Made by a program: the position numbers and the translations under genes. Below, in pieces: positions 30,098 through 41,418 of a stretch of 64,000 nucleotides of DNA (position 1 is its first letter; each line of letters starts with the position of its first letter). Source of the stretch: Nocardiaceae bacterium (lineage in GTDB: Bacteria; Actinomycetota; Actinomycetes; Mycobacteriales; Mycobacteriaceae); assembly GCA_021372355.1 (NCBI GenBank), contig JAJFUQ010000183.1, positions 1 through 64,000 of the forward strand, written 5' to 3'. Below the pieces are notes generated by a model that made no database searches, was not told the origin of the DNA, and saw nothing but the letters and a program-made list of their open reading frames with translations.

Positions 30098-31216
30098 TCA
30101 GCGCCGGCGGTACGGATACTTCGTTTGTGTGTGTATTTCGGCGAACAGTGGGTCTGCCGGACCGATGTCGTAGGTGCATTCGGTGAGTCGCGGATCTGGG
30201 ACGTAAGCCCACACGAGTCCGCCCGCGGTACCGGCAGCTCGTTGACCGGACATCGTCTTGGACAGGGCGACCCGACGGTCTTCGAGGGACCTGCAGCTAC
30301 CGGCGACCGCCCCGATCTCGGCAACCAGAAGCGGTTTGCTCAGCTGTCGAGCCTGCCGGAGCCGAGCGGCGAGTCCGCTCGACGCGTCGCCCGGCAGGAC
30401 CGTCCCGGAGTCGAAGTAATCGTGATAGCTCAACACATCGACATAGCGAGACCTGCCGACGGTGACGTAATCGCCCGCGCTCGTCCCACACTGGTTACCG
30501 CCGAGGAAGCCCGCGAAGATCAAGCGACGCGGGTCAGCCGATCGCACGAGGACTCCGGCATCGTCCGCAAACCTGCGCATCAGCGTCGCCGCGTCGGCGG
30601 GACATGACCGCTGGGTGCACTCCAGGTCGAGACAGACGCTCGGTTCGGGCTCGCCGATCAGTTCCCATCCGGCGACCACCGGCGACGAGCGATATCGCGC
30701 GACCGCGATCGATACCCAGTCGGCGTAGCTGACCAGTTGGCCGGTACCGGGGCTCAGTCTTCGCCAACCATCGACGTACCACAACCGCTGCTTGAACACC
30801 TGGTCGTCACACCGACCGTCCTGCGGCGACAGCACGGGCAGGATCAGCCGCCTCGCACGCTCGGCGGCCCGGAAGACCGCATCCGCCGCGGAGAAGTCAA
30901 AGGACTGCGATTTCTTGTCGATCACCAGATGCTGAAACAGATTGAACCGAATGAGCGCATGCGGCGGGGTGGCGGCAAAGAAGGCATCGAGATCGACTTG
31001 TGCACCACAGCCCTCGTTGAGCGCGTAGCGCGTGAGGAGTTCGGGGGCATTGATACCCGCCGGCCACCAATCCACGCCGTTGAGTCGCAGGGTCGTCCCC
31101 TGGGCCGTCACGACCGGCACGGCCGGAGGCGCTGACGCCGTGAGGCCGAACATCGTGAGGAGTAATGCGACGATGACCACGAGCAAGGACGATCGCCTCT
31201 GCTCCCACTTCACCAT
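30098..31216 (-). CDS. Secreted GH5-like glycoside hydrolase
   Basis: A 372-residue protein with a signal peptide (SLLVVIVALLLTMFGLTASA) and a TIM-barrel glycosidase of clan GH-A. The acid/base Glu is in AGWELIGEPEPSV (canonical ...NEP is IGEP here), and the nucleophile Glu in KPLLVAEIGAVAG. An early LNGVDWWPAGINAPELL is typical of GH5/mannanase-like enzymes. It heads the exopolysaccharide operon, so it may trim or edit the polymer like BcsZ. The start codon lies within the RAE promoter module of the divergent helR. Confidence 0.8.
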   Translation of the reverse strand: MVKWEQRRSSLLVVIVALLLTMFGLTASAPPAVPVVTAQGTTLRLNGVDWWPAGINAPELLTRYALNEGCGAQVDLDAFFAATPPHALIRFNLFQHLVIDKKSQSFDFSAADAVFRAAERARRLILPVLSPQDGRCDDQVFKQRLWYVDGWRRLSPGTGQLVSYADWVSIAVARYRSSPVVAGWELIGEPEPSVCLDLECTQRSCPADAATLMRRFADDAGVLVRSADPRRLIFAGFLGGNQCGTSAGDYVTVGRSRYVDVLSYHDYFDSGTVLPGDASSGLAARLRQARQLSKPLLVAEIGAVAGSCRSLEDRRVALSKTMSGQRAAGTAGGLVWAYVPDPRLTECTYDIGPADPLFAEIHTQTKYPYRRR

Positions 31217-31266
31217 ATCGCGCACCCCCGGGCTTGCGGCAAGACCCCCACTGTGCCGCACAATCG
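31208..31266 (+). promoter_or_regulatory. RAE promoter module of helR
   Basis: It contains the 19-nt rifamycin-associated element GGGCTTGCGGCAAGACCCC (31230-31248), with inverted CTTGC/GCAAG arms and GGG/CCC flanks. A CACAAT -10-like hexamer (31259-31264) follows at the right distance to put the element near -35. The whole 59-nt segment aligns without gaps, 46 of 59 identical by hand count, to 41360-41418 upstream of the rifampicin-monooxygenase-like gene. Confidence 0.85.
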
Positions 31267-31326
31267 TGACCCTACGGCTTCGGCCTGCGCAAACGCAGTC
31301 ACCCGACAGCCTGGATTGGGGGGCGC

Positions 31327-33501
31327 ATGTCAGATCGAGAGTACGAAGACGAGTTGCGGTCCGAGCGAGAGTACGTGGCCGACCTCTATGCACGACTCGA
31401 TGCCGAGCGCGCTCGGGTCGGCGCGAAATTCTCCGATGCCTTGCGCGAACACGGCGGCACGCTCATCGAGCGGGACGTCGAAGTCCGCACACTGGGGCGG
31501 GAAGTGCAGCGACTCGACGTCGCCGACAACGGCCTGTGCTTCGGCCGCCTCGACGCGCTGACTGGCGAACGTTCGTACGTCGGGCGGATCGGCATCTACG
31601 ACGAAGCGAATGAGTACGAGCCGCTGCTGCTCGACTGGCGAGCACCGGCCGCCCGACCGTTCTACGTGGCGACGGCAATATCGCCGGAGAACATGCGACG
31701 TCGCCGGCAGTTCCACAGTCAGGGCCGAGAGCTCGTCGACTTCAGCGACGAGGTGTTCGGGCATCCCGGTGGCGGCGAACGCGGAGACGCCGCCCTGCTC
31801 GCGGCGGTCAACGCCCCGCGTGGCGAGGGGATGCGCGACATCGTCGCGACGATCCAAGCTGAGCAGGACGAGATCATTCGGCTCAGCCACAACGGCGTCG
31901 TGGTCATCGAGGGCGGCCCTGGTACCGGAAAGACGGTCGTCGCGCTGCACCGCGTCGCGTACCTGCTGTACACGTACCGGGAACGCATGGAAAAGCACGG
32001 CGTTCTCGTCGTCGGACCGAACAAGGCGTTCATTCGACACGTCGGACGGGTGCTCCCGTCGCTCGGTGAAACGAGCGTCGTCTTCATGACGCCAGGGGAC
32101 TTCCTGCCGGGGATGCACGTGACCACCGAGGACGCCCCGGCGGTCGCTCGCCTCAAAGGTTCGCTCAACATGGTGACCGTTCTCAAGCGCGCGGTCGCGA
32201 ACCTGCAGCGACTGCCGGAGGACCCGATTCCGATCCAAGTCGGCGGCGTCAGTCTCCGGATCGACGACGACACCGCGGAGTGGGCGCGCGACGAAGCCCG
32301 GAACACCGGTCTGCCGCACAACGAAGCCCGCGCAAAATTCCGCGAGATCATCACCTACGTCCTCACCGAGCGCGCGATCGGCCGCCTCGGTCGGGGCTGG
32401 TTGTCTCGCGAGAATCGCAAAGAGTGGGAGGACATGCGGTCGTCGTTGATCGCAGAACTCGCCGCATCGGACACATTCACCTCGATGCTGGACCGGCTGT
32501 GGCCGGTATTGAAGCCGGAAACCTTTCTGGCCGAGCTCTATTCGAACCGAAGCCGACTTCGGGCGGCCGGTGCCGACGACGCGTTGTGGCGCGAAGACGG
32601 TGCCGCGTGGACGGTCTCGGACGTTTCGCTCATCGACGAGCTCATCGAGATCATCGGACGCGATCCCGCCGATGATGCGGCCGCGGCCCGCGAGCGCGCG
32701 ACCGCGATCGAGCACGCCAAGGACGTCATGGACATGATGGTCACTCGCCAGGACAACATGGATGGCGAAGGCATGCAGCTGTTCGCGAACGAGATCATGG
32801 ACGCCGAGCGCCTGGCCGAGCGGTTCGTGGAACGCGACACCCGCGACGTCGCCGAACGCGCGGCGTCGGACCGCGACTGGACGTATCGGCACGTGGTGGT
32901 GGACGAGGCACAGGAACTGTCCGAGATGGACTGGCGCGTCCTCATGCGCCGCTGCCCGACCAAGTCGTTCACCATTGTCGGCGATCTCGCACAGCGTCGT
33001 TCGTCGGCCGGTGCGACGTCGTGGGGAACGATGCTCGAGCCGCACGTCCCCGGTCGCTGGGCTTACCGGACGCTGACCATGAACTACCGCACGCCGGCGG
33101 AGATCATGGCGGTGGCCGCCGAGCTTCTCGCGTCGTTCGCCCCGGGTGTCGAGCCGCCGGAGTCGGTCCGATCGAGTGGCGTCCAGCCATGGTCGCGACA
33201 GGTTTCCGAAAGCGAGATTCCCGCTGCGATCGATCAATTCGTCGCCGAAGAAGCGGAGCGGGAGGGCACGAGCATCGTCATCGGGCCGGTTGGTTTCCCG
33301 GGAACGGTTCCCGCTTCGGAAACGAAGGGTCTGGAGTTCGATTCGGTTCTCGTTGTCGAACCGGAACAGATCATCACCGAAGGCGAACGGGGTGCGGCCG
33401 AGTTGTACGTGGCACTGACGCGAGCCACGCAGCGCCTCGGCGTACTGCACGTCGGCCCGCTGCCGGATTCGCTTGGCGGTCTGGCGGTTTCCGGCCGTTG
33501 A
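31327..33501 (+). CDS. helR: HelD/HelR-type superfamily-1 helicase-like protein (rifamycin protection)
   Basis: A 724-residue UvrD/Rep-like ATPase lacking RecB-type domains. An N-terminal coiled segment (YEDELRSEREYVADLY) is followed by Walker A EGGPGTGKTVVALHR near residue 198, motif II VVDEAQELSEMDW near 525, and motif VI VALTRATQRL near 694. HelD proteins bind RNA polymerase and free stalled complexes. The RAE-controlled HelR subclass displaces rifamycins from RNA polymerase. The RAE at 31230 makes HelR the best call; a housekeeping HelD remains possible. Confidence 0.85.
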   Translation: MSDREYEDELRSEREYVADLYARLDAERARVGAKFSDALREHGGTLIERDVEVRTLGREVQRLDVADNGLCFGRLDALTGERSYVGRIGIYDEANEYEPLLLDWRAPAARPFYVATAISPENMRRRRQFHSQGRELVDFSDEVFGHPGGGERGDAALLAAVNAPRGEGMRDIVATIQAEQDEIIRLSHNGVVVIEGGPGTGKTVVALHRVAYLLYTYRERMEKHGVLVVGPNKAFIRHVGRVLPSLGETSVVFMTPGDFLPGMHVTTEDAPAVARLKGSLNMVTVLKRAVANLQRLPEDPIPIQVGGVSLRIDDDTAEWARDEARNTGLPHNEARAKFREIITYVLTERAIGRLGRGWLSRENRKEWEDMRSSLIAELAASDTFTSMLDRLWPVLKPETFLAELYSNRSRLRAAGADDALWREDGAAWTVSDVSLIDELIEIIGRDPADDAAAARERATAIEHAKDVMDMMVTRQDNMDGEGMQLFANEIMDAERLAERFVERDTRDVAERAASDRDWTYRHVVVDEAQELSEMDWRVLMRRCPTKSFTIVGDLAQRRSSAGATSWGTMLEPHVPGRWAYRTLTMNYRTPAEIMAVAAELLASFAPGVEPPESVRSSGVQPWSRQVSESEIPAAIDQFVAEEAEREGTSIVIGPVGFPGTVPASETKGLEFDSVLVVEPEQIITEGERGAAELYVALTRATQRLGVLHVGPLPDSLGGLAVSGR

Positions 33502-33507
33502 CCCGTC

Positions 33508-40917: not shown

Positions 40918-40920
40918 GGG

Positions 40921-41331
40921 CTAACAACCGATCAATTCGAGGCGCAGCGTCCGGCGCTCGGCTGGGATCGGCAGGGCGGCCGCGTCGGAGGTCCGGATCG
41001 GCCGCGGCCCGCGTGGAATCCGGCTTCCGCTCCCGCCACCGCGCCCTCGGTAAACCAGCAGACCAGCGCTTTTGTCCGGGACGGCGTCGAGCGCCGCGTG
41101 GATCGCCGGCAGTTGGCGGAAGGCCTCCGCGTCTTCGTCACTGGTGAACTCGAACTCGACGACGAACCCCCAGCGGTGCTCGTGGGTGTACCAATTTCGC
41201 GCGCGGTTGGTGAGGGCAGCCTCGATGAGTGCGGCGCTATGAGCGCGCCACCACTGATGACCCGGGAACGGCCCGTCGAAGACTTCGACGGTCAGCCAAC
41301 TATCGCTCACGATTCGACGGTACGCCGACAT
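40921..41331 (-). CDS. Conserved hypothetical protein
   Basis: A 136-residue protein rich in Trp and aromatic residues in its first half ([21 protein letters not shown], then [17 protein letters not shown]), ending in a basic/proline-rich loop. No catalytic motif or family recognised. It lies just upstream of the methyltransferase. Its 5' end overlaps a 22-codon frame that reads divergently out of the rox RAE module. Confidence 0.55.
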
Positions 41332-41359
41332 GTGTGAAGCGGGCCATGGCTTCTTCCCC

Positions 41360-41418
41360 CTTCACCATATCGCGCGGGTGGGGGCTTGCCGCAAGGCCCC
41401 GGTCATGCCGCACAATCG
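41360..41418 (+). promoter_or_regulatory. RAE promoter module of the rifampicin-monooxygenase-like gene
   Basis: GGGGCTTGCCGCAAGGCCCC (41381-41400) is the RAE palindrome with intact arms, followed by a CACAAT -10-like hexamer (41411-41416). It aligns over 59 nt without gaps to 31208-31266 upstream of helR, including an upstream CTTCACCATATCGCGC block that is identical in both. Confidence 0.85.

Follow-up and report, generated by a model that had tools for sequence, protein, structure and literature searches.

The rifamycin-associated element (RAE) is a palindrome that lies 5′ of rifamycin-resistance genes, and how rifamycins are sensed through it, a question that concerns actinobacteria including mycobacteria, was called unresolved in January 2026 (PMC12802891). 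The same question is raised by a 64,000-nucleotide stretch from a Nocardiaceae bacterium (GenBank assembly GCA_021372355.1, contig JAJFUQ010000183.1, positions 1–64,000; hereafter the window), in which an RAE precedes both helR, for an RNA polymerase motor, and rox, for a rifampin monooxygenase. What does the conserved unit around the palindrome contain, and what might it do? The reading best supported by comparison of the two copies with their relatives is that two promoters overlap back to back and have the RAE in common as −35/regulator site, one directed at the resistance gene and the other at the opposite strand. This two-way architecture appears to be what is new here; the helR and rox regulon itself is of an already known kind. 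The elements of the two modules are as follows, the module limits having been set from column information across 197 modules at the points where conservation stops, about +9 on each side.

31197–31279, + strand: complete helR RAE module, read as two overlapping back-to-back promoters round the palindrome
31212–31217, − strand: putative antisense −10 hexamer TATGGT, helR module
G complementary to 31205, − strand: predicted antisense +1, helR module
31230–31247, + strand: RAE palindrome GGGCTTGCGGCAAGACCC, proposed shared −35/regulator site
31259–31264, + strand: sense −10 hexamer CACAAT, helR
41349–41431, + strand: complete rox RAE module
41364–41369, − strand: putative antisense −10 hexamer TATGGT, rox module
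G complementary to 41357, − strand: predicted antisense +1, rox module
41382–41399, + strand: RAE palindrome GGGCTTGCCGCAAGGCCC
41411–41416, + strand: sense −10 hexamer CACAAT, rox

Predicted opposed promoter elements around one palindrome

An earlier sequence-only reading of the window had aligned segments 31208–31266 and 41360–41418 without gaps, counting 46 identical positions in 59, and had pointed to an RAE palindrome and a CACAAT −10-like box in each. Both observations were reproduced. When both strands of the window were scanned, the runner-up 59-mer reached only 33/59, and we rejected a chance origin of the identity on this ground. The identities are held by three blocks, namely CTTCACCATATCGCGC (16/16), the RAE palindrome and TGCCGCACAATCG (13/13). 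Both segments contain CTTGC-N-GCAAG with its G/C arms, GGGCTTGCNGCAAGNCCC is matched at both palindromes, and CACAAT lies 15 bp beyond GCAAG in each module. Both modules thus carry the 19-bp palindrome GGG-CTTGC-N-GCAAG-N-CCC 5′ of a rifamycin-resistance gene, overlapping the sense −35 region with its dyad at about −33, as in RAE promoters.

RAE sites were collected across the family (201 genomes, 95 positive) and the class (395 genomes, 139 positive, with a handful of control matches). About 200 of them were retrieved and aligned with the palindrome as anchor, and 197 modules were retained by a score that included the hexamers. On the opposite strand, a hexamer starts 15 bp from the RAE arm; it reads TANNNT at exactly this place in 193/197 modules and TANNNT is almost never found at other offsets (background, 0.18% per position). 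Its T−12 (194/197), A−11 (195/197) and T−7 (196/197) are nearly constant while −10 and −9 vary, and the predicted antisense start has G at +1 in 189/197 and at +2 in 180/197. On the sense side, CANNNT occupies the mirror position, again at 15 bp, in 185/197 modules (C−12, 186/197; A−11, 196/197; T−7, 195/197). The dyad lies at about −33 from both predicted starts, and in both directions TTGCNG could serve as a −35 element at a spacer length of 19 bp. The layout is that of a bidirectional promoter: TANNNT and CANNNT, as opposed −10 elements, stand at a distance of 15 bp from the arms of a shared palindrome. Judged by the rules for −10 and +1 positions, the antisense element is in all probability an active promoter. 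A convergent, B. subtilis-type reading of the hexamers was rejected, as the −12 bases fit it less well.

Two further features of the modules were observed. The palindrome has a polarity, the base after GCAAG being A or G on the sense side in 181/197 modules and C on the antisense side in 192/197. In many modules (for example, L125–L144), the sense −10 is followed by a GGCCGAGGCCAGAACCTG-like sequence that might fold into a small hairpin at the mRNA 5′ end.

We weighed two other readings of the upstream block. In M. smegmatis helD, according to a review, a sense promoter P1 lies upstream of the RAE and a second sense promoter, P2, has its −35 overlapping the RAE; both were mapped as sense starts (PMC10719064). 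The block might accordingly be the core of a P1 in tandem with an RAE promoter P2, and the antisense hexamer a by-product of the self-complementary ANNNT, which is identical on both strands; the sense reading has C or T at −12 in 191/197. However, the antisense T−12 is steadier than the sense C−12 (158 C, 33 T), the antisense +1 G is kept, a sense P1 would lack a conserved −35 (about 0.1–0.2 bit), and the spacing is the exact mirror of that of the sense −10. Moreover, a relative of M. smegmatis (L285, HelD 96% identical) has a separate sense TACCCT upstream, which could be the P1 of M. smegmatis helD, in addition to antisense TATGGT at the standard place. A P1-like sense TANNNT was not conserved across the modules surveyed. 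We therefore consider the tandem reading unlikely.

In the other reading, the entire 60–80 bp is an extended regulator site whose left block binds a protein and is not a promoter. High conservation across the whole unit and the regulator postulated in the literature (PMC10719064) speak for such an operator, but the left hexamer is fixed at −12, −11 and −7 and nearly free at −10 and −9, and the +1 G is kept. This is the pattern of sigma reading a −10 and is atypical for an operator, which makes this explanation quite unlikely.

The antisense element precedes the genes of five unrelated families (helR, 95/95 modules; rox, 57/58; rgt, 15/16; rph, 14/14; arr, 11/11), helR being the commonest RAE gene with 95 of the 197 modules. 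The rgt, rph and arr assignments are presumptive, being based on length and sequence resemblance. Further classes of the Actinomycetota likewise show the full two-sided pattern, 5′ of rox-like, rph-like and arr-like genes, with 0 control matches (396 genomes). In the modules of these other classes (L318–L329), the sense −10 is mostly CATAAT, and the genes downstream encode flavin adenine dinucleotide (FAD) monooxygenases as well as rph-like and arr-like products. The monooxygenases are moderately Rox-like (about 215–270 bits to a rox representative in most) and may, from their sequences, form a separate resistance subfamily.

Information drops to background beyond about +9 on either side, the left flanks share 28.6% identity, and no conserved divergent neighbour gene was found among the modules surveyed. 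It thus seems to be the antisense promoter that is under selection, not its product, and a function exerted through a divergent gene or an antisense product was rejected on the same evidence. The sequence-only reading rightly held that more than the 19-bp core is conserved, but it understated the case by missing the opposite-strand promoter element. The exact 16-bp upstream identity is local: it is lost in the sister species G001, where the helR block is TTTAAAGATATATCGC and the rox block CTTCACCATATCGCGA.

Several points count against the two-way architecture. The activity of the antisense element is a prediction from sequence, and both −35/−10 spacers are long at 19 bp. Since the retention score used the hexamers, 193/197 is not a fully independent figure. 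Of the 11 cores rejected by the score, nine resemble non-RAE chance matches, and two (L119 and L202) look like real modules yet lack an exact element; counting them back in gives 193/199 as the fairer figure. An independent set, chosen by HelD homology alone, comprised 80 named loci, 52 with an intact core, and both hexamers stood at offset 15 in 50/52. The two exceptions, L207, in which both sides are degraded, and L270, in which there is a one-base shift, belong among the unfavourable observations.

Identity of helR and rox and extent of the regulon

The genes downstream of the two modules are as follows.

31327–33501, + strand: helR, class II HelD/HelR RNA polymerase motor, 724 amino acids (PDB 6yxu family)
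41448–42875, + strand: rox, rifampin monooxygenase, 475 amino acids

The window HelR matches NCBIfam models NF041258 (1315 bits; cut-off, 1100) and NF041465 (1286 bits; cut-off, 1051) over its full length and is 67% identical to M. smegmatis HelD, also full length. The other HelD paralogue of the genome is 43% identical, falls below the HelR cut-offs and lacks an RAE. Rox exceeds the cut-off of the NCBIfam equivalog NF033145 (876 bits versus 800), and the solved structures closest to it are the rifampin monooxygenases 5vqb and 5kow. Thus, the HelD/HelR-like and Rox-like identities that had been suggested from the letters alone pass the curated cut-offs, and a placement with housekeeping HelD or unrelated flavin hydroxylases, an outcome named beforehand as fatal to the proposal, did not come about.

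The tip of the PCh-loop is unusual in the window HelR. The acidic pair E484/D485 of M. smegmatis HelD (E496/D497 in M. abscessus) is required for resistance (PMC10719064), and ED is kept in 47/52 RAE-linked HelRs. The window HelR has EG instead, with E kept, D changed to G and a one-residue insertion; it and its counterpart in G001 read MDGEGMQL, whereas most RAE-linked HelRs read MDDEDHLL. The residue changed to glycine corresponds to the aspartate that reaches the rifampicin pocket. Membership in the HelR family by curated model stands regardless of the EG tip.

The whole genome (5.37 Mb, 98.8% complete) contains four CTTGCNGCAAG cores, and the window's two are its only RAE promoters. The other two cores were rejected, the third because it sits inside a phage-tail-like coding sequence and the fourth because it belongs to a palindrome of another kind. 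The latter, at about 779–802 of locus L003 (genome contig C147), is TCACG(G)CTTGCCGCAAGGCCGTGA-like, with the RAE core but other arms; it has no RAE module and is located 5′ of an mce-type YrbE permease gene. At the level of sequence, therefore, the single two-gene RAE regulon proposed from the window holds, and the search for further copies recommended with it yielded no third module. Its novelty had been overstated. An RAE search in S. venezuelae returned exactly rox and helR (PMC10719064), so this regulon is not new, and linked helR–rox RAE pairs, 1.6 to 15.5 kb apart, occur in at least nine genomes of five genera (by genus: the window's genome and G001; G041; G063 and G021; G132, G173 and G064; G334). 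The two modules lie far apart in many other genomes.

The interval between helR and rox (33550–40917) encodes a flavohaemoprotein-like product, an SRPBCC protein, a TIGR00027 methyltransferase and a drug-efflux-like transporter of the major facilitator superfamily (38087–39472); the core search of the genome found no RAE belonging to these genes. On the other side of helR, a possible divergent gene for a secreted protein occupies 30098–31216 on the minus strand, its start codon (31214–31216) overlapping the antisense −10 of the helR module. An antisense transcript could serve this gene in the present genome; a corresponding neighbour is not conserved elsewhere.

A candidate rifamycin-responsive switch

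How might such a module respond to rifamycins? With helR and rox each under a full RAE module, target protection and drug destruction would both be rifamycin-responsive. The palindrome would act as the shared −35/regulator site, with CANNNT as a weak sense −10 to one side of it and antisense TANNNT, then GG at +1, to the other, and polymerase would take only one of the two orientations at any moment. As long as drug is absent, sense expression would be held low, partly through antisense engagement; a rifamycin-responsive RAE-binding factor would then redirect polymerase to the resistance gene, much as SoxR does at PsoxS/soxR. Two precedents are published: E. coli bidirectional promoters bind polymerase in mutually exclusive orientations, with SoxR activating one direction and repressing the other (PMC12825309), and rifampicin induction of helR in M. 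abscessus is RAE-dependent (PMC10719064). Taken as a whole, a two-way RAE module driving rifamycin-responsive helR and rox as a regulator-tipped switch is the account we are inclined to believe. We are evenly divided on whether promoter direction is what is switched, and likewise whether a regulator, rather than polymerase itself, would be the sensor could go either way.

To examine polymerase occupancy, we used a steady-state model in which binding was mutually exclusive and a fraction of the polymerase carried the drug. Induction appeared in 0/200,000 random parameter sets and, when ejection of drug-bound polymerase was added, in 0/200,000 further sets. Occupancy alone, with or without ejection, was thus rejected (0 in 400,000), and something beyond occupancy is needed. 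The likeliest candidates are a drug-responsive factor that binds the RAE and a repression tied to antisense firing; the former is favoured because the invariant GG/CC arms fall outside the −35.

These results bear on the possibility that RNA polymerase is the sensor without any regulator, rifampicin-arrested antisense initiation freeing the sense direction; this would be a phylum-wide divergent counterpart, independent of the convergent dual-promoter alarm of B. subtilis. Two opposed promoters of unequal type are indeed conserved phylum-wide, and two-promoter sensing without a regulator has been published for B. subtilis helD/pps (PMC12802891) and, in tandem form, for mycobacterial rpoBC (PMC6181997). 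The lack of an RAE 5′ of any regulator gene among the modules surveyed weakly favours it as well. However, a polymerase arrested on the antisense side of overlapping divergent promoters should block the sense side, the occupancy-only model gave no induction, and the conserved GG/CC arms beyond the −35 are left unexplained. We regard polymerase-only sensing as possible but doubtful.

HelR could instead be a required component: by clearing the module of polymerase that carries the drug, it would free the sense direction. Release of rifampicin-bound polymerase by HelR is published (PMC10719064), and helR is the most frequent RAE gene, but ejection did not rescue induction in the model. Furthermore, 7 of 23 genomes having only non-helR RAE modules lack a HelD-family match at E ≤ 1e-100, which makes HelR a very improbable requirement. 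RNA attenuation by the palindrome was also rejected, as the RAE is part of neither predicted transcript: both begin outside it and lead in the outward direction. A transcript from an upstream P1 might contain it, but P1 is not conserved.

The regulator-tipped switch, the account we favour, faces difficulties of its own. The RAE regulator is a postulated factor, and it is not revealed by autoregulation, as no RAE precedes a regulator gene among the modules surveyed. In addition, the EG tip leaves the rifamycin-displacing activity of the window HelR uncertain. If the proposal is true, the two-way promoter would explain why the RAE is a palindrome placed on the −35; the antisense start is predicted at a defined base, and the sensing question would narrow to a few point mutations in a laboratory strain.

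Relation to known rifamycin-responsive and bidirectional promoters

The modules resemble the RAE promoters of Actinobacteria described before helR, rox, arr, rgt and rph, in which one palindrome serves five gene families and lies over the sense −35; RAE-linked rox and helR of S. venezuelae are a close likeness (PMC10719064). They differ in that helR and rox are 10 kb apart in the window, and in that the literature lists two sense promoters, whereas we find a mirror-placed antisense −10 and +1. The antisense element appears to be undescribed in the RAE literature surveyed, which did not include the primary RAE papers of 2014 and 2022, where an earlier mention may exist.

The helD/pps alarm of B. 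subtilis likewise places sense and antisense promoters of different strength before rifampicin-resistance genes including HelD, but its promoters converge, with 39 bp between them, and there are collisions of elongating polymerases (PMC12802891). The RAE modules do not have two convergent promoters about 39 bp apart; they are best read as divergent with a shared −35 region, an arrangement in which collisions would be impossible. As convergence and collisions are what the B. subtilis alarm depends on, its mechanism is not directly transferable. In mycobacterial rpoB-rpoC, rifampicin raises expression through unequal effects on promoters I and II, and inhibition of a sensitive polymerase is required; those promoters are in tandem, lack an RAE and give a small induction (PMC6181997). 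The bidirectional promoters of E. coli, such as PsoxS/soxR, share pseudo-symmetric DNA, two exclusive polymerase orientations and a regulator that can act as activator in one direction and as repressor in the other (PMC12825309). Unlike these cases, the RAE module has a palindromic −35 centre, an unconserved antisense product and a fixed architecture that recurs phylum-wide before unrelated genes.

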